Positions 1-16,846 of a DNA stretch of 24,279 nucleotides are shown here, one piece after another. Under the pieces are notes generated by a model that was not told the origin of the DNA, ran no database searches, and saw nothing but the letters and a program-made list of their open reading frames with translations. Source of the DNA: a virus; the IMG/VR virus record IMGVR_UViG_3300031772_006060, positions 1 through 24,279 of that record; one strand, written 5' to 3'. The translations under genes and the position numbers were made by a program. Position 1 is the first letter of the stretch. Every line of letters starts with the position of its first letter.

Positions 1-891
1 CAGTATAAATATGAGTAGGATTCTGAGTAGTAGCGTGAGTAGATCCGTCACCAAAATCCCAATCCCATGACGTAGGAGTTCCTGTAGATGTATCCGTAAA
101 TGCTACTGAGAGATTTGCAGGACCTGAAGTAGGAGTACCCGTGAAATTCGCTACCATACTCACAGAGATGTAGCTCGTTTTTGTCTCAGTATCAGATCCA
201 GCTCCATTAGTAGCTATCAAAGTGACTGTGTACGTACCAGCTACAGTATAAATATGAGTAGGATTCTGAGTAGTAGCGTGAGTAGATCCGTCACCAAAAT
301 CCCAATCCCATGACGTAGGAGTTCCTGTAGAGGTATCTGTGAATGCTACTGAGAGGTTTGCGGGACCTGACGTAGGAGTCCCTGTGAAATCCGCTGTCAT
401 AATTACAGTGATGTAGTCAGTTTTTATTTCTGTATCAGACCCTCCAGCATTAGTAGCAGTCAGCGTGACTGTATACGCTCCTGTTACAGTATAAATGTGA
501 GTGGGATTTTGCGTGTAATCATGAGTAGATCCGTCACCGAAATCCCAATCCCATGCCGTAGGAGTACCCGCAGAGGTGTCTATGAATGCTACTGAGAGAT
601 TTGCGGGACCTAACGTAGGAGTACCCGTGAAATTCGCTACCATACTCACAGTGATATAGTTCGTTTTTATCTCTGTATCAGACCCTCCAATATTAGAAGA
701 GATTAGGGTAACTGTATACGTACCCGCCACTGTATAGATATGGGTGGGATTTTGAGTGATAGCATGAGTAGATCCATCACCGAAATCCCAGTTCCATGAT
801 GTAGGAGTACCCGTAGAGGTGTCTGTAAAATTTACGGTTAGTGGCGCATACCCAGCAAGAGGGTTTGATATAAAATCAGCAACGATGGGAC
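1..891 (-). repeat. In-frame 243-bp tandem repeat (PKD domain array)
   Basis: Equivalent bases recur at 1, 244, 487 and 730, a constant 243-bp (81-codon) spacing. Units run roughly 1-165 (partial), 166-408, 409-651 and 652-891. Bases 1-88 and 244-331 are identical. A different 37-bp block is identical between 129-165 and 615-651 but diverged in the unit between them. The oldest-looking unit is the one nearest the N-terminus. The array continues beyond position 1. Confidence 0.95.
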
Positions 892-1759
892 TAATAACTA
901 CAATAGACTCAACAACAGACCATAGAGATATAAGGGAAACTAATGTATTGGCTGCTCTGACTCTATAATAGAATGTGCCGACGGGGACTGAAGACTCAGT
1001 GAATGTTGTTAATGGACCGGAGTATATCTCAATTGGGGATAAAAACAATGGCTCTGATGATCGCTCTAAAACATACCCATCAGATCCTACTGAAACTGAC
1101 CACACGGCCTGTATGTCAGCGCTAGATAGAATCTGCGTTAATGATATAATAGAAGGTATAGGAATGGAATAGTCTTCAGTATACGCAGAGTACGGCGATG
1201 CAGCATAAGAGTAGGAGATAGAAAACTGAGTGGAATCAGAACTTACAAAGTTTGAGAAATTATCAAGTCTAGACGAATTCCAATTAACAGATGTGCTAAT
1301 GGGAGAAGATACTTTAACATCATGATACATCTTGATAGAAAGTGACTTGGGAAGACTATCAGATAGCACTAAAAGTCTAACATCATCGTGCTCTCGAATA
1401 TAAACACCAACACTAGAAACATCAGATGAAAGCGTGCGTGAGAAGTAGGTAGTAGGATCAGTAGTTAGATTGGGTTCAATCTCAAGAATCCGAAGAACTC
1501 GGTTGGTACCAATACACCAGACCCAGAAACGATCGGTGAAGAAAGACCCATCGTTCTGTAGTGCAGGGGATACCGAGAAACTATATAGTGAAAGCGGGAT
1601 TGATGCTACAAATGAACTATAGAACTCTTTGATCAACAGCTTGCCAAAAGATTGGGAAACTGACCATAGGTATCCTTTGGCTGAAATGCCTATAGGGATT
1701 GACTCAGAGCCGTACCCTGTAACAAAAAGTTCCTGATTATCAGTAACTGGTAATGACAT
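1..1759 (-). CDS. Virion adhesin/receptor-binding protein with tandem PKD domains (3' end outside window)
   Basis: The ATG at 1759 opens a frame with no stop before the window edge, so about 586 residues are visible and the C-terminus is missing. The first ~290 residues are beta-rich and unrecognised; around residues 205-295 they resemble a fibronectin-III fold (GYVLERSSEP, later GTFYYRVRAANT). At least four PKD domains follow, each with the hallmark WDFGDGST (WNWDFGDG in the first) and a THIYT...GTYTVTL strand pair. Their period is exactly 81 residues. PKD domains are Ig-like spacers or binders found in surface and carbohydrate-active proteins, so a distal fibre or adhesin role is inferred. 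The start lies two bases after the TAA of the 70-aa gene and has no clear Shine-Dalgarno, which suggests coupled translation. The codons are AT-richer than in genes above 6.8 kb. Confidence 0.85.
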   Translation of the reverse strand, partial: MSLPVTDNQELFVTGYGSESIPIGISAKGYLWSVSQSFGKLLIKEFYSSFVASIPLSLYSFSVSPALQNDGSFFTDRFWVWCIGTNRVLRILEIEPNLTTDPTTYFSRTLSSDVSSVGVYIREHDDVRLLVLSDSLPKSLSIKMYHDVKVSSPISTSVNWNSSRLDNFSNFVSSDSTQFSISYSYAASPYSAYTEDYSIPIPSIISLTQILSSADIQAVWSVSVGSDGYVLERSSEPLFLSPIEIYSGPLTTFTESSVPVGTFYYRVRAANTLVSLISLWSVVESIVVISPIVADFISNPLAGYAPLTVNFTDTSTGTPTSWNWDFGDGSTHAITQNPTHIYTVAGTYTVTLISSNIGGSDTEIKTNYITVSMVANFTGTPTLGPANLSVAFIDTSAGTPTAWDWDFGDGSTHDYTQNPTHIYTVTGAYTVTLTATNAGGSDTEIKTDYITVIMTADFTGTPTSGPANLSVAFTDTSTGTPTSWDWDFGDGSTHATTQNPTHIYTVAGTYTVTLIATNGAGSDTETKTSYISVSMVANFTGTPTSGPANLSVAFTDTSTGTPTSWDWDFGDGSTHATTQNPTHIYT

Positions 1760-6772: not shown

Positions 6773-7264
6773 TCACACGTCCGATATGAAAGCAGACACT
6801 GACACACTATATTTACCCACAGTAGTATACGTATGCGTAGGGTTTGCTACCATACCCGTATACCCATCCCCAAAATCCCACACCGCACCAGTAAAATGAC
6901 ACCCAGATGGAGCTATACTCTGATCCGAAAAATTTACCAAAAGAGTACCAGGACCGCGTACAGGATCAGCCAAGAAATCCAGCTTCCCCAGTTTCACAAC
7001 AAAAAAAGGTGACACATATGACCCAGAAAAATCATATACCGTAAGAACGACCCTATGTATCCCATGTGACGTGTATGTATGTACCGGCTCCCGCAGAGCG
7101 CTCGTAGTACCATCCCCGAAATCCCAAAGGAACGCCGTAGGATCCCCACTCACTACCTCGACCCTAAACTGCACCGTGATAGGAGTGATGTAAAGGAACA
7201 CACCAGACACACCACCCTGCCCAGTCTCACCCTGCTTGTATAGCTCAATGTTTGCAGAAACCAT
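6773..7264 (-). CDS. Small virion adhesin with two PKD domains (163 aa)
   Basis: After a short Gly-rich leader (about residues 8-20, QGETGQGGVSG) there are two PKD domains, near residues 22-92 (AFLWDFGDGTTS, VHTYTSHGIHRVVLTVYD) and 95-160 (AVWDFGDGYTG, PTHTYTTVGKYSVSVSA). The product ends immediately after the last core strand, so the second domain may be slightly truncated. The gene starts four bases after the TAA of the upstream PKD/jelly-roll gene, with only a weak GAG-type Shine-Dalgarno. It is the last gene before the gap and composition change. PKD domains here probably act as spacers or binding modules on a fibre. No signal peptide or enzyme motif is seen. Confidence 0.8.
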   Translation of the reverse strand: MVSANIELYKQGETGQGGVSGVFLYITPITVQFRVEVVSGDPTAFLWDFGDGTTSALREPVHTYTSHGIHRVVLTVYDFSGSYVSPFFVVKLGKLDFLADPVRGPGTLLVNFSDQSIAPSGCHFTGAVWDFGDGYTGMVANPTHTYTTVGKYSVSVSAFISDV

Positions 7265-7268
7265 AATA

Positions 7269-7925
7269 TTATCTCATATCCAAATACCCAGCTTTACCAC
7301 GGGTACTAATGTGATAGTCTCGCAAATTTTTAGCCGTCGACCACACCATCAACTCATCTATCTTTATAGTACTCTGTACCGCTACCTCTGTTTTAGTACT
7401 CACAGGTACTGTAGGAGCCACATTGGTCGTCTTGTTACAAGGGATCACTTTGTAGTTTCCAAGATATGTACCAACACTCATATTCTCAGACACAGGATCA
7501 AACTGCACCATAGCCCACTGCTTTATGTTGATGACCCTATCAGAAGATCTATACACATACTGTGGGGTCTCATAAACCAAATGCAACTGTGCATCTATGT
7601 AAAAACGCCAATAGGCCCCCGACGAAACCTCAAACGTCTGCATGATAACAAAATCGGGCGTAGGTGCTACATCATTCACTATGATGTAGTCTGTCTTCGT
7701 CTCACTATCCTGATCCACACTATCCTGTACTACGAGTGTCACTGTATACCTACCAGGCACCGTGTACGTGTGCTTCACGGTAGTATCATTACCATCAAGC
7801 ACAGTACCATCCCCTAAAATCCATTTCCTACCCGTAATAACGCCCGTAGAGGCGTCCGTGAACACGACAGTGTTGAACCTGTCCGCGGCCCTATTAGATA
7901 CAGCGAAATCGGCTGCTACAGCCAT
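7269..7925 (-). CDS. PKD domain fused to the C-terminal half of a LamG-like jelly roll (218 aa)
   Basis: Residues 1-87 form a PKD domain in which the usual WDFGDG is WILGDG, followed by KHTYTVPGRYTVTLVVQD. Residues ~92-205 read as the second half of a laminin-G/concanavalin-A-like jelly roll: YWRFYIDAQLHLVYE, then KQWAMVQFD, SVGTYLGNY, and the typical final strand IKIDELMVWSTAKNLRD. The opening strands of such a fold are absent here but are present at the end of the upstream gene. LamG-like domains bind glycans or other surface ligands, so a receptor-binding role is inferred. The ATG at 7925 has AGGA six bases upstream, overlapping the previous TAG. It is in a different frame from the upstream gene, so simple stop readthrough would not join them. 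Confidence 0.75.
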   Translation of the reverse strand: MAVAADFAVSNRAADRFNTVVFTDASTGVITGRKWILGDGTVLDGNDTTVKHTYTVPGRYTVTLVVQDSVDQDSETKTDYIIVNDVAPTPDFVIMQTFEVSSGAYWRFYIDAQLHLVYETPQYVYRSSDRVINIKQWAMVQFDPVSENMSVGTYLGNYKVIPCNKTTNVAPTVPVSTKTEVAVQSTIKIDELMVWSTAKNLRDYHISTRGKAGYLDMR

Positions 7926-7933
7926 ATATCATC

Positions 7934-9037
7934 CTAAAGAGTAATTGATTTAGCACGCTCGGATGAGCCCGCCGCATTAGTCACTGTGAGTATCACTAAA
8001 TATGTACCTGACGTAGGGAACGTATACGTGATATTCTTCGCAGGAGTAATAACTCCACCCAGAGACCACGACCAGCTCGTGGGATACATCACAGACGTAT
8101 CCGTGAAAGTCACCCGCGTAGGCTTTGATGGATCCACTGTATACGAGAAATCTGCTATAGGAGGCACATCCAAACGCACCCACGCCTGAATAGATCCAGT
8201 GAACCCTAAAAATTTATCGTTAGTATACCCCGATCGCCCACCTCTGTATACGATCGAGTGGCTGTTGTCTACAATACCGTCTACCACCACGAAAGAAGAC
8301 TGCTCCTGAGGCATGAAAAATAACCCAGTGTCCCCTAACCCTATACCCGTATACCCCACACCAGTGTACCCCGCCCCCGTAGCTCCCCACTCCAAATCCC
8401 GCTCATATACCGCGTAATCCAGGAGGCTGAGATTATCCGATTTGAATTTGCCATAAAAAAGAAGATCTGTAGACGGATACACCCCAGTAGCACCCTGTGG
8501 CCCTATCTCTCCTGCGGACCCCACACCCGTGATCCCCTGTGGGCCCGTATAACCTATCAGGCCCTCGATGCCCGTCTCACCTACACTACCGACGTACCCG
8601 TCGAGTCCTGTAGCTCCTACGCGTCCCTGGAGCCCTCTATCACCCTGCTCAAAACTACTGGTGATAGAGAAGGTAGCCATTTTGGAGTACTGGTTGATCA
8701 CCAGAACATTGAAACTACCGTAGGACTCCTGAATGAGAAATTGAGCTATAGGCAAACAATTAGAGATAGCATCAGACGTGACACTCTGAACAAACGCGGC
8801 TGACTTCTTGACCAGGTCAAAAATGAACTCGCCATCTTCCACACGGTAGTACACGTTGATGGCGGCATATTTGCCCTTATCCTCAGGTAGAGTGAAAAAA
8901 GTCTGCCCGCGTATAGGTATGATCAGATTACTGAGATCCAGTATCCGATCATTGTAGAGCACAGAACCCAGACTGACACTGTAATCTACAGTGCCGTCTG
9001 CGTTTCTGATCTCATGTATGATATTCGAGTTGTCCAT
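7934..9037 (-). CDS. Collagen-like tail fibre protein with partial LamG-like and PKD domains (367 aa)
   Basis: Residues 1-130 are an unrecognised N-terminal domain, plausibly the baseplate attachment part. Residues 132-186 are Gly-X-Y collagen-like repeats (GDRGLQGRVGATGLDG onward) with one interruption near GVGSAGE; such segments trimerise in phage fibres. Residues ~190-290 look like the first half of a LamG-like jelly roll (DLLFYGKFKSDN, SSFVVVDG, GFTGSIQAWVRLD), with an odd GYTGVGYTGIG loop inside. From ~293 to the end is a PKD domain (ADFSYTV, SWSWSLGG, YTFPTSGTYLVILTVTN) lacking the usual GDG. The start codon lies one base after the previous stop, with a weak AGAAAG upstream, so coupling is likely. 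The combination fits a side-fibre or short-fibre protein. Confidence 0.8.
   Translation of the reverse strand: MDNSNIIHEIRNADGTVDYSVSLGSVLYNDRILDLSNLIIPIRGQTFFTLPEDKGKYAAINVYYRVEDGEFIFDLVKKSAAFVQSVTSDAISNCLPIAQFLIQESYGSFNVLVINQYSKMATFSITSSFEQGDRGLQGRVGATGLDGYVGSVGETGIEGLIGYTGPQGITGVGSAGEIGPQGATGVYPSTDLLFYGKFKSDNLSLLDYAVYERDLEWGATGAGYTGVGYTGIGLGDTGLFFMPQEQSSFVVVDGIVDNSHSIVYRGGRSGYTNDKFLGFTGSIQAWVRLDVPPIADFSYTVDPSKPTRVTFTDTSVMYPTSWSWSLGGVITPAKNITYTFPTSGTYLVILTVTNAAGSSERAKSITL
8480..8647 (-). repeat. Collagen-like Gly-X-Y coding repeat
   Basis: About eighteen triplets with Gly at every third residue (GDR GLQ GRV GAT ...), broken once, in the 367-aa fibre protein. Such runs form triple helices in phage fibres. 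Confidence 0.85.
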
Positions 9038-9038
9038 G

Positions 9039-12000
9039 TTACTTTCTGAGGAGCGGTTTATTCGTCAGTCTGTATATAGCGATCGAAGGTTCTGTCTGCT
9101 CGATATACCCAGGCTTGTACTCAGCATCCAAATCCTCGTATAATCCTGTCTTGTTCTCCAGGCGTGCTTTGTACACCTTGCTGAATATCACGAGCACCAA
9201 CTCACCACGCATCACAGGATACAGCACGTCCGACCGTACCCGGGCTATCATAGGAACAAAAACTTTTCTAGGAGTACTCGTAACCATATTCTCTGCCTGA
9301 GCTATGACGTCCACAGAGCAACTCGAGTAATACGTCCTGCCTACCTTATCCCCTACGTTGTTCGGTCTGGATAGTACGATGTCCTCGCCAATGTACTGTG
9401 AAAGTATACCAGGCATCCGCACGAAACCTGTAGGAATCGTGAAATTGCTAAACTCCATGTCATCCACATTAGAAAACATATTATCATTCTTCACAGAATC
9501 ATCGTTGACAGCTATGTGCTCTGCAGGTACCTCATAAGGCTCCCCACGCACTATCTCGCTAGCTCCTGTACCTAGGTTCGTTATAAACACCTGCTCAGAC
9601 ATATTCACTACTTCCAGAATCAACTCTTCTGGCAGGTTACCCACAGTCTGGTACGGGATGTATTTGTAGAACACAGTAGCTACCGAGTTAGCTACAGTAC
9701 CAGGTAAATTCGCCAGCTTCACCAGGAGAGGTATCTGTATTTTACCACCATTCAGAGGCTTTCTAGGATCCACCGAGATAGTCACAGTAGACGTGCCAAG
9801 ACCCGTCACCGCAGCTATAGGTGCCATAGTGAAGTAGTCGTTTTGGACCGGTAATGATGACGCCTGATACCACAGATACGGCTGCTGTACTATCTCTTTA
9901 GTCTCACACGATATGAGGCCCAGTACCGTGCCATTCAACAGAGTACTGCCCGCTGGTAGACTCGATAAGTCCACTGTAATCGTAGTAGTGAGTGTAGTGA
10001 GACTGATAGGGTACAGGATACCGATATACATCCCAGATACAGCTTTCGACGCAGGGCTGAAATTAGCCGTGAACGATGTCCTAAGCGCTTCCTGATTCTC
10101 ACCCTTACTCTGTACCGTGATACCTGTGTCTACACTGGGAGTCATACCGAGCGCACTACTCGGTACACACGCCTCCAGTATGACCTCCAAAACAGCATTC
10201 GCAGGTATCGTGAACGCCTCATCCAAATACACCACTACATTATCTTTCACCAAACTCGCGTCTACCACCTCACGATCACGCAAAGACATGTCGCCAGCAA
10301 AATCTACAGATATTTTATAGGACGCGCCATTTACGTTACGCACCGATCGTACACCGTATATGGCATACCCATTGAGATTCTTAGGGATCCTCAGGATACT
10401 GGTAGCCGTGGTAGTCTGCGTGAAATAGTGATACTCTACCAGAGACCCTCTAAACTGCTGACCCTCATACTTTCTGAGGCTCTTCTGAGCATCAGGATCT
10501 ACCATAGGAGTATGACCCAGTAACTCATACAAGAACTTATCCTGATCGTTATCTAATACGACTTTAGCAGAGTACAGCCTGGTATAGTCTACATACCCAG
10601 GCACATTCTCCGTGAGTGTCTCCAGGATCTTACTATCACTCCGGGAATTGATACCGTTGAAATAGTATGTCTCACCGACATTCACAGGATTCGATTGGTA
10701 CTTCACAGAGATAGGAGTCTTAGGGACCCTGGACAACCCTACACGCGAGTAATCAATGAGTGTGGCTGTGATCTGATATTGTACGCCAGTTAGTGTACCA
10801 CCAGATGGCGTATAATTATCTGCTATATGGAACACCACAGTATCTGTACCGAAACCCTCAAAAGTCCCCGGCACAGGCTCCTTGGTCACTACAGTGCCTC
10901 TTTTCACGTATGCACTGTAATATGACGGGTCATTGTGGTAGAGGCCGTCGTCCCGAGGACCGAAAGTCAGCTCTGCCGTGGTAATCAAAATATTGGGGTC
11001 CAGTAGTTTTATATCCTCTACCAGCACCGCGGATGACGATACTCCACCACGTACCAGGTTAGGGATATCATTCGTACCGGTATACTGATCTGACATCAGA
11101 ATAGAAGTACCGTACTGGAGCCCTCTTTGATCCTTGTCACTGACACTGGTCTTGAGGTTGTTAGATAGCAACTTCTCAAGATTCTTCTGCAGCAGTGCGC
11201 TGTAGGACTGGACCACTATCTGACGACGTATGTCAGTGACATCATCATCCACGATCTGCTCATAGGTCAGCCCATCAGGACGTATCGCATTCAAGTCAAA
11301 ATAGGTAGACCCGTTTATATTGCTGTCTACGTTGAATGCACCGGAGTTTCTTTTGGACACAAAAAACATAGGGATCGCCCAGCTGTACCCATCATAGGTA
11401 CCCCTACACCGAGCACGCCATAGGCCATAGTCACCATTCTCAGGACCCATGTTCTCGAAAATGTAGTTACCAGCCTCGCTGGTGTTCGCGTTGAATCCCT
11501 GGCTGTAGACATACTCATGGCCTAGTCCAGACTCTGGATGCTGGAACGGATCTACACCCTCTGCAATTCGGATACGGTACTGTATCTGTACCCGCCTGGT
11601 AGTCTCTACTCCTACCTGGGGGTCTATGATGTTGTCCGTCAAATACTCTTCAGCATTGGACAACACATTACCCTCAGGGAATATTCTACCCTGGACCTTC
11701 GTGACGAGATCAGTACTCTGTGTCTCAGCTGGTGGTATCACGGATGCGTTATACTGTACCACAGTACCTTCAGCTCCCGTAAACCACCCTTTAGTATCAG
11801 ACACAAAGAAAATGTCGTACATATCATAACCGGTACCGATATCCAACACTTCCCATTTAGACCCGCTGTTGTTGCTGATCAGGGCCACCCCCGAGTCACC
11901 CGCTATCCAGGCTTTATCCTCTACAGAAAAAGACAACTGCGCAGGACTCATACTGGAGAAGCTACCAGAAGACGGTCTGAAATCAGACGGCTTCCCTACG

Positions 12001-13487
12001 TTAGAGGGCTCGTAATCTATCGAGGACTCAAAAACACGTATCTTTTGTCTCTGCGCATCAGGCAAATAAGCATCATCCGACCGGTAAGCACTGATCTGAT
12101 TGTTTATTGCTGTACTCAGATCCTCTGCCGTAGCGTATGCATCGAGATCCAGAACTTTTATGTAATTGATGTTATCCTGTGTGCCCGTAAACTCCAGGAC
12201 CAGAGAGTTCGGGTAGTTCGCGGGAGATATCTTGTACATCAAATTCTTGAAATAAACCTTCGGAGCATACGAATACACCCCGATTACCAGGCGTATCGCA
12301 AACTCTTCCCGTATGAAAATGCGATTGAAATTGATAGTACTACCAGGGTATATATCCTGTATGGTCTTGTAGGCCCCATCACTCCAGATACGGTCCGACA
12401 TATTGGACCACGTGAACCCACTATCAGACGTCCTGAGTATGAGCCCATCAGATCCCGAGATCACTCCGTCATTGAGGTTATAGAAAGCTACAGAGTACAG
12501 AGACTGCGTGACCTGAGTACTCGTGGCGTTGTCTGTGACACTGTACCGCTGCCAGATGTTACCACCATCTTTAGTCATCAGCAAAGTGCCAGACGCTCCT
12601 ACTGCCCATCCCACAGACGTATCAAAAAATGTCACACCGTAGAGATTACTGGTATTGCTGGACGACTGGGACACCGTATTAAAATGTGTGCCATCGATCG
12701 ACAGCAGTATGGTGCCATTGTTACCTACGATACACACCCTCTGTGCATCTATCAGGTACAGGTCGTTGAGGTCGTCATTGACCGGAGTACTCAACGTGAA
12801 CCACGACGCTCCTCCGTCTAAACTCTTTACGATCTGACCCTTATCAGAGATAGCGTATCCTATCTCCAGACCGTAGAACTTAACTTTCTTGAAATTCATG
12901 TTTATGGGGGTATCTACTGTGATCCAGTTATTACCACCATCAGAAGTTTTCAGGATAGTACCATTATCTCCCACCGCCCACCCGATGTTTTCATTGTACA
13001 TGTGTACGCCATTGATCGTACTGACCTTAATCACCGGTTGTGGTTTAGAGGTCTCCCCTGTTATCGCTGATTTGATCTGTGGAGTCACCACAGATCTCCA
13101 CACCTCCAGGAATACACCATCTACTCGAGATCCGGATCTCAGCTCATTGTCATTGAACAGTATCTTATTTACATGCTTCAGGGGTGTGTTGGTGTTTGTG
13201 ACATACACGGGCCATCCATTCACCAGTGCCATCTCGGGCTTGGCACCTGTAGGATCCTGAGTATAGAAACCATTGGTGATATCTTTGGAAGTATAGTACG
13301 GGCGGTAGCTGAGCCATCCAGACGGCATATGCGCAGTGGATTTCTGCGTGAGTAGCTCCAGCTGCTCCTGAGCCAAATTCAGCTCAGTGTCCAGGATAGG
13401 TTTTCCAGACTGAAAAACCACCTTATCAAACGCATACCCGGACGCACCAGACGCCGGTGTCACTTTATCACTCTGATTGGTAGCCAT
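9039..13487 (-). CDS. Giant baseplate/tail structural protein with inserted Ycf48-like beta-propeller (1482 aa)
   Basis: The N-terminal phrase VVFQSGKPILDTELNLAQEQ resembles the start of large phage baseplate/fibre-base proteins. A scaffold phrase DGVFLEVWR (near residue 125) resumes after ~595 with TTRRVQIQYRIRIAEG. Between them are seven propeller-like repeats of the Ycf48/BNR type: five at residues ~158-362 (GWAVGDNGTILKTSDGGNNW is the clearest) and two at ~522-580 (AWIAGDSGVALISNNSGSKW). Residues ~363-521 are inserted between blades five and six. The C-terminal 800 residues are beta-rich and unrecognised. I chose the ATG at 13487, because GAGAGG is nine bases upstream; an in-frame GTG at 13493 would be only three bases from it. 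The gene follows baseplate J directly, which suggests a wedge or fibre-docking role. Residue numbers count from 13493. Confidence 0.8.
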   Translation of the reverse strand: MATNQSDKVTPASGASGYAFDKVVFQSGKPILDTELNLAQEQLELLTQKSTAHMPSGWLSYRPYYTSKDITNGFYTQDPTGAKPEMALVNGWPVYVTNTNTPLKHVNKILFNDNELRSGSRVDGVFLEVWRSVVTPQIKSAITGETSKPQPVIKVSTINGVHMYNENIGWAVGDNGTILKTSDGGNNWITVDTPINMNFKKVKFYGLEIGYAISDKGQIVKSLDGGASWFTLSTPVNDDLNDLYLIDAQRVCIVGNNGTILLSIDGTHFNTVSQSSSNTSNLYGVTFFDTSVGWAVGASGTLLMTKDGGNIWQRYSVTDNATSTQVTQSLYSVAFYNLNDGVISGSDGLILRTSDSGFTWSNMSDRIWSDGAYKTIQDIYPGSTINFNRIFIREEFAIRLVIGVYSYAPKVYFKNLMYKISPANYPNSLVLEFTGTQDNINYIKVLDLDAYATAEDLSTAINNQISAYRSDDAYLPDAQRQKIRVFESSIDYEPSNVGKPSDFRPSSGSFSSMSPAQLSFSVEDKAWIAGDSGVALISNNSGSKWEVLDIGTGYDMYDIFFVSDTKGWFTGAEGTVVQYNASVIPPAETQSTDLVTKVQGRIFPEGNVLSNAEEYLTDNIIDPQVGVETTRRVQIQYRIRIAEGVDPFQHPESGLGHEYVYSQGFNANTSEAGNYIFENMGPENGDYGLWRARCRGTYDGYSWAIPMFFVSKRNSGAFNVDSNINGSTYFDLNAIRPDGLTYEQIVDDDVTDIRRQIVVQSYSALLQKNLEKLLSNNLKTSVSDKDQRGLQYGTSILMSDQYTGTNDIPNLVRGGVSSSAVLVEDIKLLDPNILITTAELTFGPRDDGLYHNDPSYYSAYVKRGTVVTKEPVPGTFEGFGTDTVVFHIADNYTPSGGTLTGVQYQITATLIDYSRVGLSRVPKTPISVKYQSNPVNVGETYYFNGINSRSDSKILETLTENVPGYVDYTRLYSAKVVLDNDQDKFLYELLGHTPMVDPDAQKSLRKYEGQQFRGSLVEYHYFTQTTTATSILRIPKNLNGYAIYGVRSVRNVNGASYKISVDFAGDMSLRDREVVDASLVKDNVVVYLDEAFTIPANAVLEVILEACVPSSALGMTPSVDTGITVQSKGENQEALRTSFTANFSPASKAVSGMYIGILYPISLTTLTTTITVDLSSLPAGSTLLNGTVLGLISCETKEIVQQPYLWYQASSLPVQNDYFTMAPIAAVTGLGTSTVTISVDPRKPLNGGKIQIPLLVKLANLPGTVANSVATVFYKYIPYQTVGNLPEELILEVVNMSEQVFITNLGTGASEIVRGEPYEVPAEHIAVNDDSVKNDNMFSNVDDMEFSNFTIPTGFVRMPGILSQYIGEDIVLSRPNNVGDKVGRTYYSSCSVDVIAQAENMVTSTPRKVFVPMIARVRSDVLYPVMRGELVLVIFSKVYKARLENKTGLYEDLDAEYKPGYIEQTEPSIAIYRLTNKPLLRK
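11754..13022 (-). repeat. Seven Ycf48/BNR-like propeller repeats, interrupted after the fifth
   Basis: Each repeat has the pattern hydrophobic strand, GWAVG-(D/A)-xGT(I/L)L, (S/K)DGG, W. Repeats 1-5 span about 12408-13022 and 6-7 about 11754-11930; the ~480 bases between code for a different domain. Some blades are degenerate, for example the third, with IDGTHF in place of SDGGxxW. Confidence 0.75.
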
Positions 13488-13489
13488 GA

Positions 13490-16400
13490 TCACAGGCCTC
13501 TCTTCGTTATTTTCTCATCGAGCACATCTATGTCTTTCATACTCAAACTATCCACATCCAGGTACTCCATAGTACTGGTAGTCAGATCTACCACAGGATT
13601 CACATCAGCAGGGTAGTACGTATAATACGATGCTTTATAATATTTCGTCTGTGGCGGTAGACCGTCCGTAGTACTCACGATAATCTTACCGTCTGCCTGG
13701 ATATACGCCCTACCAGCACTCTTAGCTACATCACCCGCGACAGTCACAGCGGTGAGCAGGATGTTATCCTCGTACACACCCCGGAACAGATTACTGTCTC
13801 CACCGCCATTCGAGGTAGTGTACGTCAGCACGGAGTGTACTGTACGATACGACGCCACACCGCTACCACTGGTTTTCTGATACACCTCAAACGTCAGCGC
13901 ACCCAGATCATCCAGAGGTATAAAAGAGCTATTCCTCTTCATCATCCTCAGTAGCGGCAGGCGGATCTCTTTTACGCCTGTCACCCCATGTATAACATTT
14001 ATGAGAGCACCCTGTGTAAAACTGTCTCCCATCTTGAGCCGAGCCACATAATTCGCTACTGCAGTCTGTATCCTGGACTTCAGGAGGCTACTGTCCACGC
14101 CAGTTTTCTTGTACACCTGAAAACTGATATCAGCGAAATTCTGTACAGCTTCTTTTACTATGGTATCCGCACAGGCATGCTTCATCTTGGTGATAGCTTC
14201 CTGTACCACCTGTACGAGCCCGTTGTGTACGTATGTAACATTGAAATTCTCACTGGCTTTATAAGTCACCTGTACGGTGTCGCCGTGTCTAATTTTACTG
14301 TTATCCAGGAGATTCACATACGTGTACGCAGACTCACTACCCACAGTCAGAGAGTAATCCACGTCTCTTATGAAATCTATGCCACTGGTAGGAGATACCA
14401 CCACAGTAGAGATATCTACTCCCTTTAGCAGGAGCCGAGCTGGAGTATCCAGGAGCATGACATGCTCTTCGTCATTCACCTGGATGAACTCCTGGATATC
14501 ATCATTCTCGTTAAACAGAAACTGCACGGAGTCCTTAGCTATACTGGAGCTACCGTTCTGCAGCGGATCTTCCGTCTTCACGAGTAGATATTTCGACGGG
14601 TCTATTATCGTACCCTGAGACGAGACTACAGACACTATCGATATCACAGGCTGGTTAGCGAGTACCACACTATTGGAGCTCCTATACAGGTAACTCACTT
14701 CTACCACGTCCTTCGTGGCCATACCCACAGACAAATTCTGATAGTTTTTCTCCAGTAGTACCGTGTTCCCACCATTCACTATCTGCATCCCAGTTAAACT
14801 GTAGTTTTCCGACCTGGAGATGTTTCTGACTCTACTCACGGATACTATAGGGCTCGTGTCCGTGACTTTTGGGTTTGGAGTACGCAGCATCAGTTCACTC
14901 GCGTTCACCACCGAGAACTGCTCTCCTACCTTGTTACCATACGTGTCAGTAGGATAGTCATACCTGAAAGCTACCTGATCTATGTACTGATTTTTTTGTA
15001 CCCCTTTGACATACACATCTACCTTACCGCCGATGTGCGTACCAGTACTCATATCGTAATCTCGCATCATCAGGGGGTCGCCTGCTTTTTCGATACGTGC
15101 CTGTAGCACTCCAGGGATATTGTAGGCAGTATCTTCATAACCACCCTCAGTGCCTGAGTCGTAGGACACTTTGGCGAGCTTTATCCTATTCGCCAGACCC
15201 AGGTTGGTCTCTCTGTCAGTACCAAACAGTGTAGGAGCATTGTTGATCACCTGTATGGTCGGTATGAGATTCCTGGATATGGTGATCACACCCGCAGGCA
15301 CATTACTAGCGCTGCCGGGAGTGATAGCCCGTATATTAGCCTCTATCTCGTATCGTTTCAGGGATGAGTTGTAGTAATGATTTATGTCCCGCACACTCAG
15401 CAGCACACTACCCTGTACTGAGAAACTCACAGATGGAGCGCCCGTATCCGGGTCCACTATAGAGGACACTACCGCACCGTCCGGTATGAGTATATCCTGC
15501 GTGGGTACGATCTCAGAGTAAAACAGGACAGTCCCTACCGCAGCGCTGGACCCTTTTCGAGTGATGTTGAAATTAGAGGCTGACTTATCAAACTGCTCGT
15601 CTATGAGTAGCTGTAGATTTATGGGGTCAGAGAGTCCCAGTGCTACCATGAGAGCGCTTTTACGCTGATCCTGCAGTACAGGTATACTCGTACCCGTACC
15701 ATTGGGGTCATCGAAATACAAAAGAGTATCTATAGACAGTGTCGAGAATATGAAATCCTCTATCACATAAAACTTCTCGAACTCCAGTGACACTGGGTCC
15801 AGGATATCCCTGATGACAGATCCCGGTACCACATTCACGAGTTCGTTGTTGACCATCATGTCCCGAGATATAGCGAAAAGTATATCGCTACGAGACCGTT
15901 TCGGGAGGGCATGGTAGCTGGTAGTGTACCGCAGGAACTTAGCCTCGAGCTCTATCGAGTATGGACTCTCTTCTACCTCATTGAAAGAACTATCAAAGAC
16001 CATGTCTGTGACTATGAAATAGTACACCACGTCTTCGCTCAGAGTCTTACCGTCGGTCAGGAAAATGTTAGGTATTTTTCCATCACGGACCAGTCGGGAT
16101 ATGACAGTCTTATCCAGAGTGTACGTGAAGTACTCGTTGGTGACCTGAGTGTTCTTTACTGTGTTGATCTGGATGTTGTTTGTGGTATCAGATACCACAG
16201 TGTCAGATAGGATCACCTCTTCAGTCTCGGACGAGTCGATAGCGGTGACCAGCGCTGTATTCATCTGGACATACCCGGACGCTCCACCACCGGCTTCCAG
16301 GCTGACATAGAAACTACACCCAGCGAAACTGCAGTTCTTGTTCAACATGATACCAGAGCTAGGGGCCAATACTTTTATGCGGTCTGTGTATCTTTTCAGT

Positions 16401-16846
16401 TTCACGCCCGTGGGAGGATTAGAGGAGGCCTGTATGGTACTCTCTTCCACCACGAAAACGTTCAGTACGGATACAGCACTCTGATCCAGGATGGGACCGA
16501 CTTCTCCGTTGTAGCTACTCAGTTTGACTGTCCTGAACTCGAACCGTACTATATCACCCACTACGGTGCTAAAAATACCGTCACTGTTAAAAGACCACGG
16601 GATAGAGGTCGCTATCGTGGCAGAGCTACCTACAGTGATGCCTGTATACGAAAAAGTCGAGTATGTACCCACCCCGTAGGCATTATCAATCCTATACCGA
16701 TACTGCACGCTCAAAAAGGTGTTCTCTTCATACACCGTAGAAATACTACCAGAGACCAGCTGGACGAGGCTATCCGTGTAATACTTATCCTCCCCAGCGG
16801 ACGTCCAATCTGTTTTCGGGTATAGGATGACAGGAGATGCTATCAT
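13490..16846 (-). CDS. Baseplate J family protein (Mu gp47/P2 gpJ-like baseplate wedge)
   Basis: The core at about residues 310-640 carries hallmarks of the baseplate J family: SRSDILFAISRDM, VVPGSVIRDILDPVSLEFEK, the large central beta region with DILIPDGAVV, the NRIKLAKVSYDSGTEGGYED element, IPGVLQARI and KVDVYVKG. A C-terminal helical/ferredoxin-like region near 870-980 (DISFQVYKKTGVD, GALINVIHGVTGVKEIRLP) also fits. At 1118 aa it is much longer than P2 gpJ (about 300 aa); about 300 extra residues precede the core and more follow it. The protein forms the wedge ring that surrounds the tail hub and triggers sheath contraction. Its ATG overlaps the upstream stop by four bases (ATGA), so the two are translationally coupled. 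Confidence 0.9.
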   Translation of the reverse strand: MIASPVILYPKTDWTSAGEDKYYTDSLVQLVSGSISTVYEENTFLSVQYRYRIDNAYGVGTYSTFSYTGITVGSSATIATSIPWSFNSDGIFSTVVGDIVRFEFRTVKLSSYNGEVGPILDQSAVSVLNVFVVEESTIQASSNPPTGVKLKRYTDRIKVLAPSSGIMLNKNCSFAGCSFYVSLEAGGGASGYVQMNTALVTAIDSSETEEVILSDTVVSDTTNNIQINTVKNTQVTNEYFTYTLDKTVISRLVRDGKIPNIFLTDGKTLSEDVVYYFIVTDMVFDSSFNEVEESPYSIELEAKFLRYTTSYHALPKRSRSDILFAISRDMMVNNELVNVVPGSVIRDILDPVSLEFEKFYVIEDFIFSTLSIDTLLYFDDPNGTGTSIPVLQDQRKSALMVALGLSDPINLQLLIDEQFDKSASNFNITRKGSSAAVGTVLFYSEIVPTQDILIPDGAVVSSIVDPDTGAPSVSFSVQGSVLLSVRDINHYYNSSLKRYEIEANIRAITPGSASNVPAGVITISRNLIPTIQVINNAPTLFGTDRETNLGLANRIKLAKVSYDSGTEGGYEDTAYNIPGVLQARIEKAGDPLMMRDYDMSTGTHIGGKVDVYVKGVQKNQYIDQVAFRYDYPTDTYGNKVGEQFSVVNASELMLRTPNPKVTDTSPIVSVSRVRNISRSENYSLTGMQIVNGGNTVLLEKNYQNLSVGMATKDVVEVSYLYRSSNSVVLANQPVISIVSVVSSQGTIIDPSKYLLVKTEDPLQNGSSSIAKDSVQFLFNENDDIQEFIQVNDEEHVMLLDTPARLLLKGVDISTVVVSPTSGIDFIRDVDYSLTVGSESAYTYVNLLDNSKIRHGDTVQVTYKASENFNVTYVHNGLVQVVQEAITKMKHACADTIVKEAVQNFADISFQVYKKTGVDSSLLKSRIQTAVANYVARLKMGDSFTQGALINVIHGVTGVKEIRLPLLRMMKRNSSFIPLDDLGALTFEVYQKTSGSGVASYRTVHSVLTYTTSNGGGDSNLFRGVYEDNILLTAVTVAGDVAKSAGRAYIQADGKIIVSTTDGLPPQTKYYKASYYTYYPADVNPVVDLTTSTMEYLDVDSLSMKDIDVLDEKITKRGL

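Follow-up and report, generated by a model that had tools for sequence, protein, structure and literature searches.

A LamG-like domain kept in two phage genes with PKD domains at the break, and its probable assembly from two proteins

In the virus record IMGVR_UViG_3300031772_006060, the 24,279 bp of which were analyzed as a whole and are hereafter called the window, two consecutive tail-fibre genes (A and B) encode the first and the second half of a single LamG-like jelly roll, a domain of the sugar-binding type, and a PKD domain adjoins the break in each of them. This split was kept in every relative found, which makes it probable that two distinct proteins come together to build the domain. 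We consider it likely that A and B contribute the two halves of one jelly roll that associate non-covalently after translation and thereby, possibly, clip B-type modules to the A stalk; the physical assembly of A with B, as well as any pairing of their PKD domains, is what we infer from these patterns. The phages carrying the split domain are uncultivated large phages.

All main genes of the window lie on the minus strand, in the order Baseplate J-like gene, 1484-aa gene, A, B, C, and further large genes (Table 1). The baseplate genes located just upstream, together with the surrounding gene order, place the A–B pair in a tail or fibre region. The YCF48/BNR-type repeats of the 1484-aa gene probably form a beta-propeller, and gene C follows B both in the window and in most relatives. 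At the edge of the window, a 586-aa ORF (positions 2–1759, minus strand) that runs off its end carries four PKD stretches in tandem. An earlier note on this DNA, made from the sequence alone, had placed the two ORFs, proposed that they encode complementary halves of one domain, and assigned a PKD domain to each side of the break; both ORFs were found where it had put them, Pfam recovered PF18911 in A and in B, and the halves, carried by separate genes, followed the order of LamG through the junction when joined as N+C.

Homologues of gene A were present in each relative examined. Its conserved N-terminal domain probably serves for attachment to the virion, judging from its position ahead of the collagen-like stalk. 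The collagen repeat scored above the Pfam cut-off (PF01391, 30.4 bits vs 27.2), and on account of this repeat gene A is probably trimeric. Both PKD domains also exceeded their cut-off of 27 bits (PF18911/PF00801), PKD-A with 34.2 bits over A residues 292–364 and PKD-B with 48.4 bits over B residues 19–83. After its PKD domain, B reads FVIMQTFE...YWRFYID...KIDELMVW, and in the last of these segments D190 was invariant and E191 nearly so (alignment A10). An AGGA motif lies just 5' of the B start codon in the window. Among the relatives, further collagen-like proteins were observed in the fibre cluster (L023:11713–12357 and L023:12403–13398, with counterparts in L024 and L025), the N-terminal domains of which resemble that of gene A and perhaps represent a shared attachment domain.

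Table 1. Features of the A–B locus and neighboring genes (coordinates refer to the window)
Feature	Position	Strand	Evidence
Baseplate J-like protein	13490..16846	-	PF04865, E 8.2e-15
1484-aa conserved gene, YCF48/BNR-type repeats, upstream of A	9039..13493	-	PF14870, E 3.7e-27
Gene A, 367 aa: N-terminal domain, collagen-like stalk, LamG N-half, PKD	7934..9037	-	ORF and Pfam
Conserved N-terminal domain, A residues 1-130	8648..9037	-	alignment A8
Collagen-like Gly-X-Y stalk, A residues 132-185	8483..8644	-	PF01391, E 3.3e-7; PHROGs tail-fibre families
LamG N-half, A residues 186-290, last strand SIQAWVRLD	8168..8482	-	alignments A4, A8, A14; junction-spanning LamG matches
PKD-A, A residues 291-367	7937..8167	-	PF18911, E 2.7e-8
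8-nt gap, A stop (TAG) to B start (ATG)	7926..7933	.	sequence
Gene B, 218 aa: PKD and LamG C-half	7269..7925	-	ORF and homologues
PKD-B, B residues 1-90	7656..7925	-	PF18911, E 9.9e-13
LamG C-half, B residues 91-218	7272..7655	-	alignments A7, A10; hhalign; AlphaFold model
KIDELMVW, last LamG strand	7341..7364	-	alignment A10 and DSSP
Gene C, 163 aa, two PKD stretches, after B	6773..7264	-	PF18911, E 7.4e-24

Neither half by itself matched the Pfam LamG family. When joined in the N+C order, the halves produced weak matches to PF13385 in 3 of the 11 relatives tried (E 0.004, 0.044, and 0.085), all below the curated cut-off of 27.6 bits (best match, 17.7 bits) and each crossing the N/C junction, while the order-swapped controls of these three gave E 0.26, none, and none, and their single halves gave none. 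When the profile of the joined halves was compared (hhalign) with seven LamG domains that occur intact in the same phages, the N+C order reached E 2.5e-5 and a score of 40.7, whereas the C-half alone (30.2), the N-half alone (21.1), and the swapped order (30.9) were weaker. Shuffling the columns of the N-half lowered the score to a mean of 30.9 and a maximum of 35.6, with none of 150 shuffles reaching 40.7, so that the real columns add about 10 score units; with shuffled C-half columns the maximum was 27.2, and the observed score was likewise never reached. Hence, the complementarity of the two halves exceeds chance. The last strand of the N-half (SIQAWVRL) accounted for most of its measurable contribution, the earlier strands agreeing with LamG chiefly by pattern and adding little measurable score, and the best conserved positions in both halves were core LamG strand residues. 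A profile search of the PDB with the concatenated halves gave no meaningful match.

The conservation of this arrangement was followed in a close relative, L002, in which A (72% identity) and B (74% identity) are divided in the same way, and in relatives far more distant than L002, for which A, B, and the 1484-aa gene served as scan queries (L004–L011, L015, L021–L025, L029, and L036). All relatives reaching the region carried the N-half followed by a PKD domain in one ORF and a PKD domain followed by the C-half in another. In all 16 related virus records tested, the profile of the concatenated halves gave exactly two matches, one per half, which never shared an ORF, and the B profile gave a single full-length match per record, as it did in the window. 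These records correspond to about 13 distinct lineages plus the window, since L021 and L022 are identical over the fetched stretch, and L007/L008 and L005/L010 are near-identical. The divergence of the two halves was correlated (r = 0.75), as would also be expected from shared ancestry alone. A search for an unsplit or PKD-free form, as the earlier note had proposed, recovered none from viral contigs or annotated phages, and from genome contigs only a truncated N-side contig. A 4.7-kb contig from a Candidatus Altiarchaeales MAG (L052) carries a homologue of the 1484-aa gene together with the first part of gene A, which hints at an archaeal host, although the binning may be wrong.

The polypeptide that carries the C-half varied among the relatives. 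In L015, two further genes stand between the halves, and the C-half forms the end of an 834-aa protein that also has two PKD domains. A single gene lies between them in L024, where the C-half closes a 401-aa protein that matches Fn3 weakly. In L023, the C-half is embedded in an 874-aa protein that matches a glycine-rich domain weakly and also has an Ig-like match. All three are larger fibre-like proteins, whereas B of the window consists of PKD and C-half only, and the C-half thus travels within different polypeptides. Other features of these fibre clusters were also observed. Downstream of A, L023, L024, L025, and L036 encode a second LamG-like segment (FSCLGWIKKP... in L024) that seemingly lacks the first strands, is preceded by PKD domains in L024, L025, and L036, and is possibly another split or a truncated jelly roll. 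A papain-family peptidase gene (PF00112, E 1.8e-16) is inserted just after B in L025 (9807–10706), and several fibre proteins of L006, L010, L011, and L023–L025 share a C-terminal tail motif, for example GFVRELGPTLIFD.

The state of the reading frames bears on whether A and B are one gene after all. For both halves, dN/dS was about 0.05–0.3, with some dS values near saturation, which indicates purifying selection on each of them. Since the window is a single metagenomic contig, one might suspect a sequencing error or a gene that broke recently and is decaying, and the earlier note had likewise considered a frameshift that broke one ancestral gene; the same split in many independent contigs and the strong purifying selection on both halves leave this explanation a negligible probability, and as a recent event the frameshift was rejected, the split being old and no unsplit form having been found in the contigs and annotated phages searched. 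A joining of A and B during translation by frameshifting, bypassing, or stop read-through, yielding one chain, appears very improbable as well. Phages are known to add Ig-like domains by frameshifting, A and B lie close together, and in L011 and L036 they share a frame across the stop. Against this, the gaps from the A stop to the B start in the relatives and the window (2, 4, 5, 8, 9, 11, 15, and 16 nt) cover all three frame relations, and the stops comprise both TAG and TAA, so that no recoding device fusing A and B is shared; a conserved frame relation with an open overlap of the two frames, as in the recoded Ig-like extensions of phages, was not seen. Moreover, a TGA shuts the B frame of the window one codon ahead of the start, and in L015 and L024 the halves are set apart by other genes. 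A programmed frameshift or read-through fusion was hence rejected on the variable frames and the intervening genes.

AlphaFold modeled B of the window alone with a mean pLDDT of 88.6, a fair confidence according to which the C-half might fold by itself, and a Foldseek search with this model retrieved chiefly PKD and Ig structures and no clear LamG. In the same model, the conserved segment KIDELMVW, a strand in LamG, was left without a pairing partner (DSSP assigned no strand at residues 186–201). It is accordingly rather unlikely, although the foremost of the alternatives, that the C-half, as a small beta domain attached to a PKD, folds and functions without its counterpart and the N-half is an independent stalk cap, the two sharing a LamG origin and no longer meeting. 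The fairly confident model of B and the presence of the C-half in other larger proteins of L015, L023, and L024 speak for such independence, but the strict one-to-one keeping of both halves in 16 of 16 records, the unpartnered state of a conserved last strand, and the concentration of the best conserved positions on the LamG core of both halves argue against it. Less likely still is that the N-half is completed by another partner, either further A chains within a trimer or a different fibre protein, while the C-half of B pairs elsewhere. The probable trimeric state of A and the other LamG-like segments encoded by several relatives would suit this arrangement; however, only the C-half of B occurs once per record, and the strands it provides are precisely those that the N-half lacks, correctly ordered. 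We also modeled a read-through fusion of A and B from L011, where the stop is in frame (alignment A13). The first 172 residues of this model, N-half included, fell below a pLDDT of 50, probably owing to the poor alignment there, and the model lends assembly in trans no positive support.

Assembly of one jelly roll from A and B can be outlined as follows. A collagen-like fibre would once have been tipped by a LamG domain, and a PKD tandem would have been inserted into the loop that follows its AWVRLD strand; a stop and a start would then have parted the two PKD domains. A and B would be translated next to each other, in many cases with stop and start closely coupled. A would be anchored in the baseplate region through its N-terminus, the collagen stalk extending from there and presenting the first LamG strands, beside which the C-half of B would insert, with KIDELMVW as the last strand completing the sheet. 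PKD-A and PKD-B would adjoin the seam and may help to stabilize it. In this way, the rebuilt LamG domain would clip B-type modules to the A stalk, and the glycine-rich, Ig-like, and Fn3-like domains noted above in L023 and L024 are examples of what such proteins carry in addition. Receptor binding by the rebuilt domain is a possible, putative role, and a role as a structural joint fits at least as well because the C-half occurs in different larger proteins. More tentatively, and with less than even probability, the halves may be obligate partners in a self-assembling joint by which exchangeable receptor-binding or enzymatic modules are fixed to a collagen-like fibre, with the PKD domains stabilizing the seam. 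If the explanation holds, a compact beta-sandwich encoded stably by two genes would indicate that even a fold of this type can persist as two halves across long evolutionary spans, modular attachment in phage fibres would have a principle besides covalent fusion and chaperoned trimerization, and A and B would offer a candidate natural split-domain pair for protein engineering.

In the open-access literature searched, the coverage of which is incomplete, we found no description of a LamG-type domain that is divided between two genes and bears PKD domains where it is divided, but the parts have counterparts in known systems. The strand pattern and order, the AWV-type strand, and the final IDE-type strand resemble the LamG/concanavalin A-like jelly roll (PF13385, Laminin_G_3), whereas here two genes encode the domain, PKD domains adjoin the break from either side, and the match falls below the Pfam cut-off. 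PKD and Ig-like domains are inserted in phage fibre and tail proteins, often in repeats, and usually decorate or extend the chain; those described here differ in lying at a gene break inside another domain. The Gly-X-Y stalk of A is like that of collagen-like phage tail fibres (PHROGs 8745, 5073, and others), from which A departs in that half a LamG domain follows the stalk. In pea and lentil lectins, a concanavalin A-like jelly roll is formed by two non-covalently held polypeptides cut from one precursor, whereas the A and B chains come from two genes and bear PKD domains at the break.
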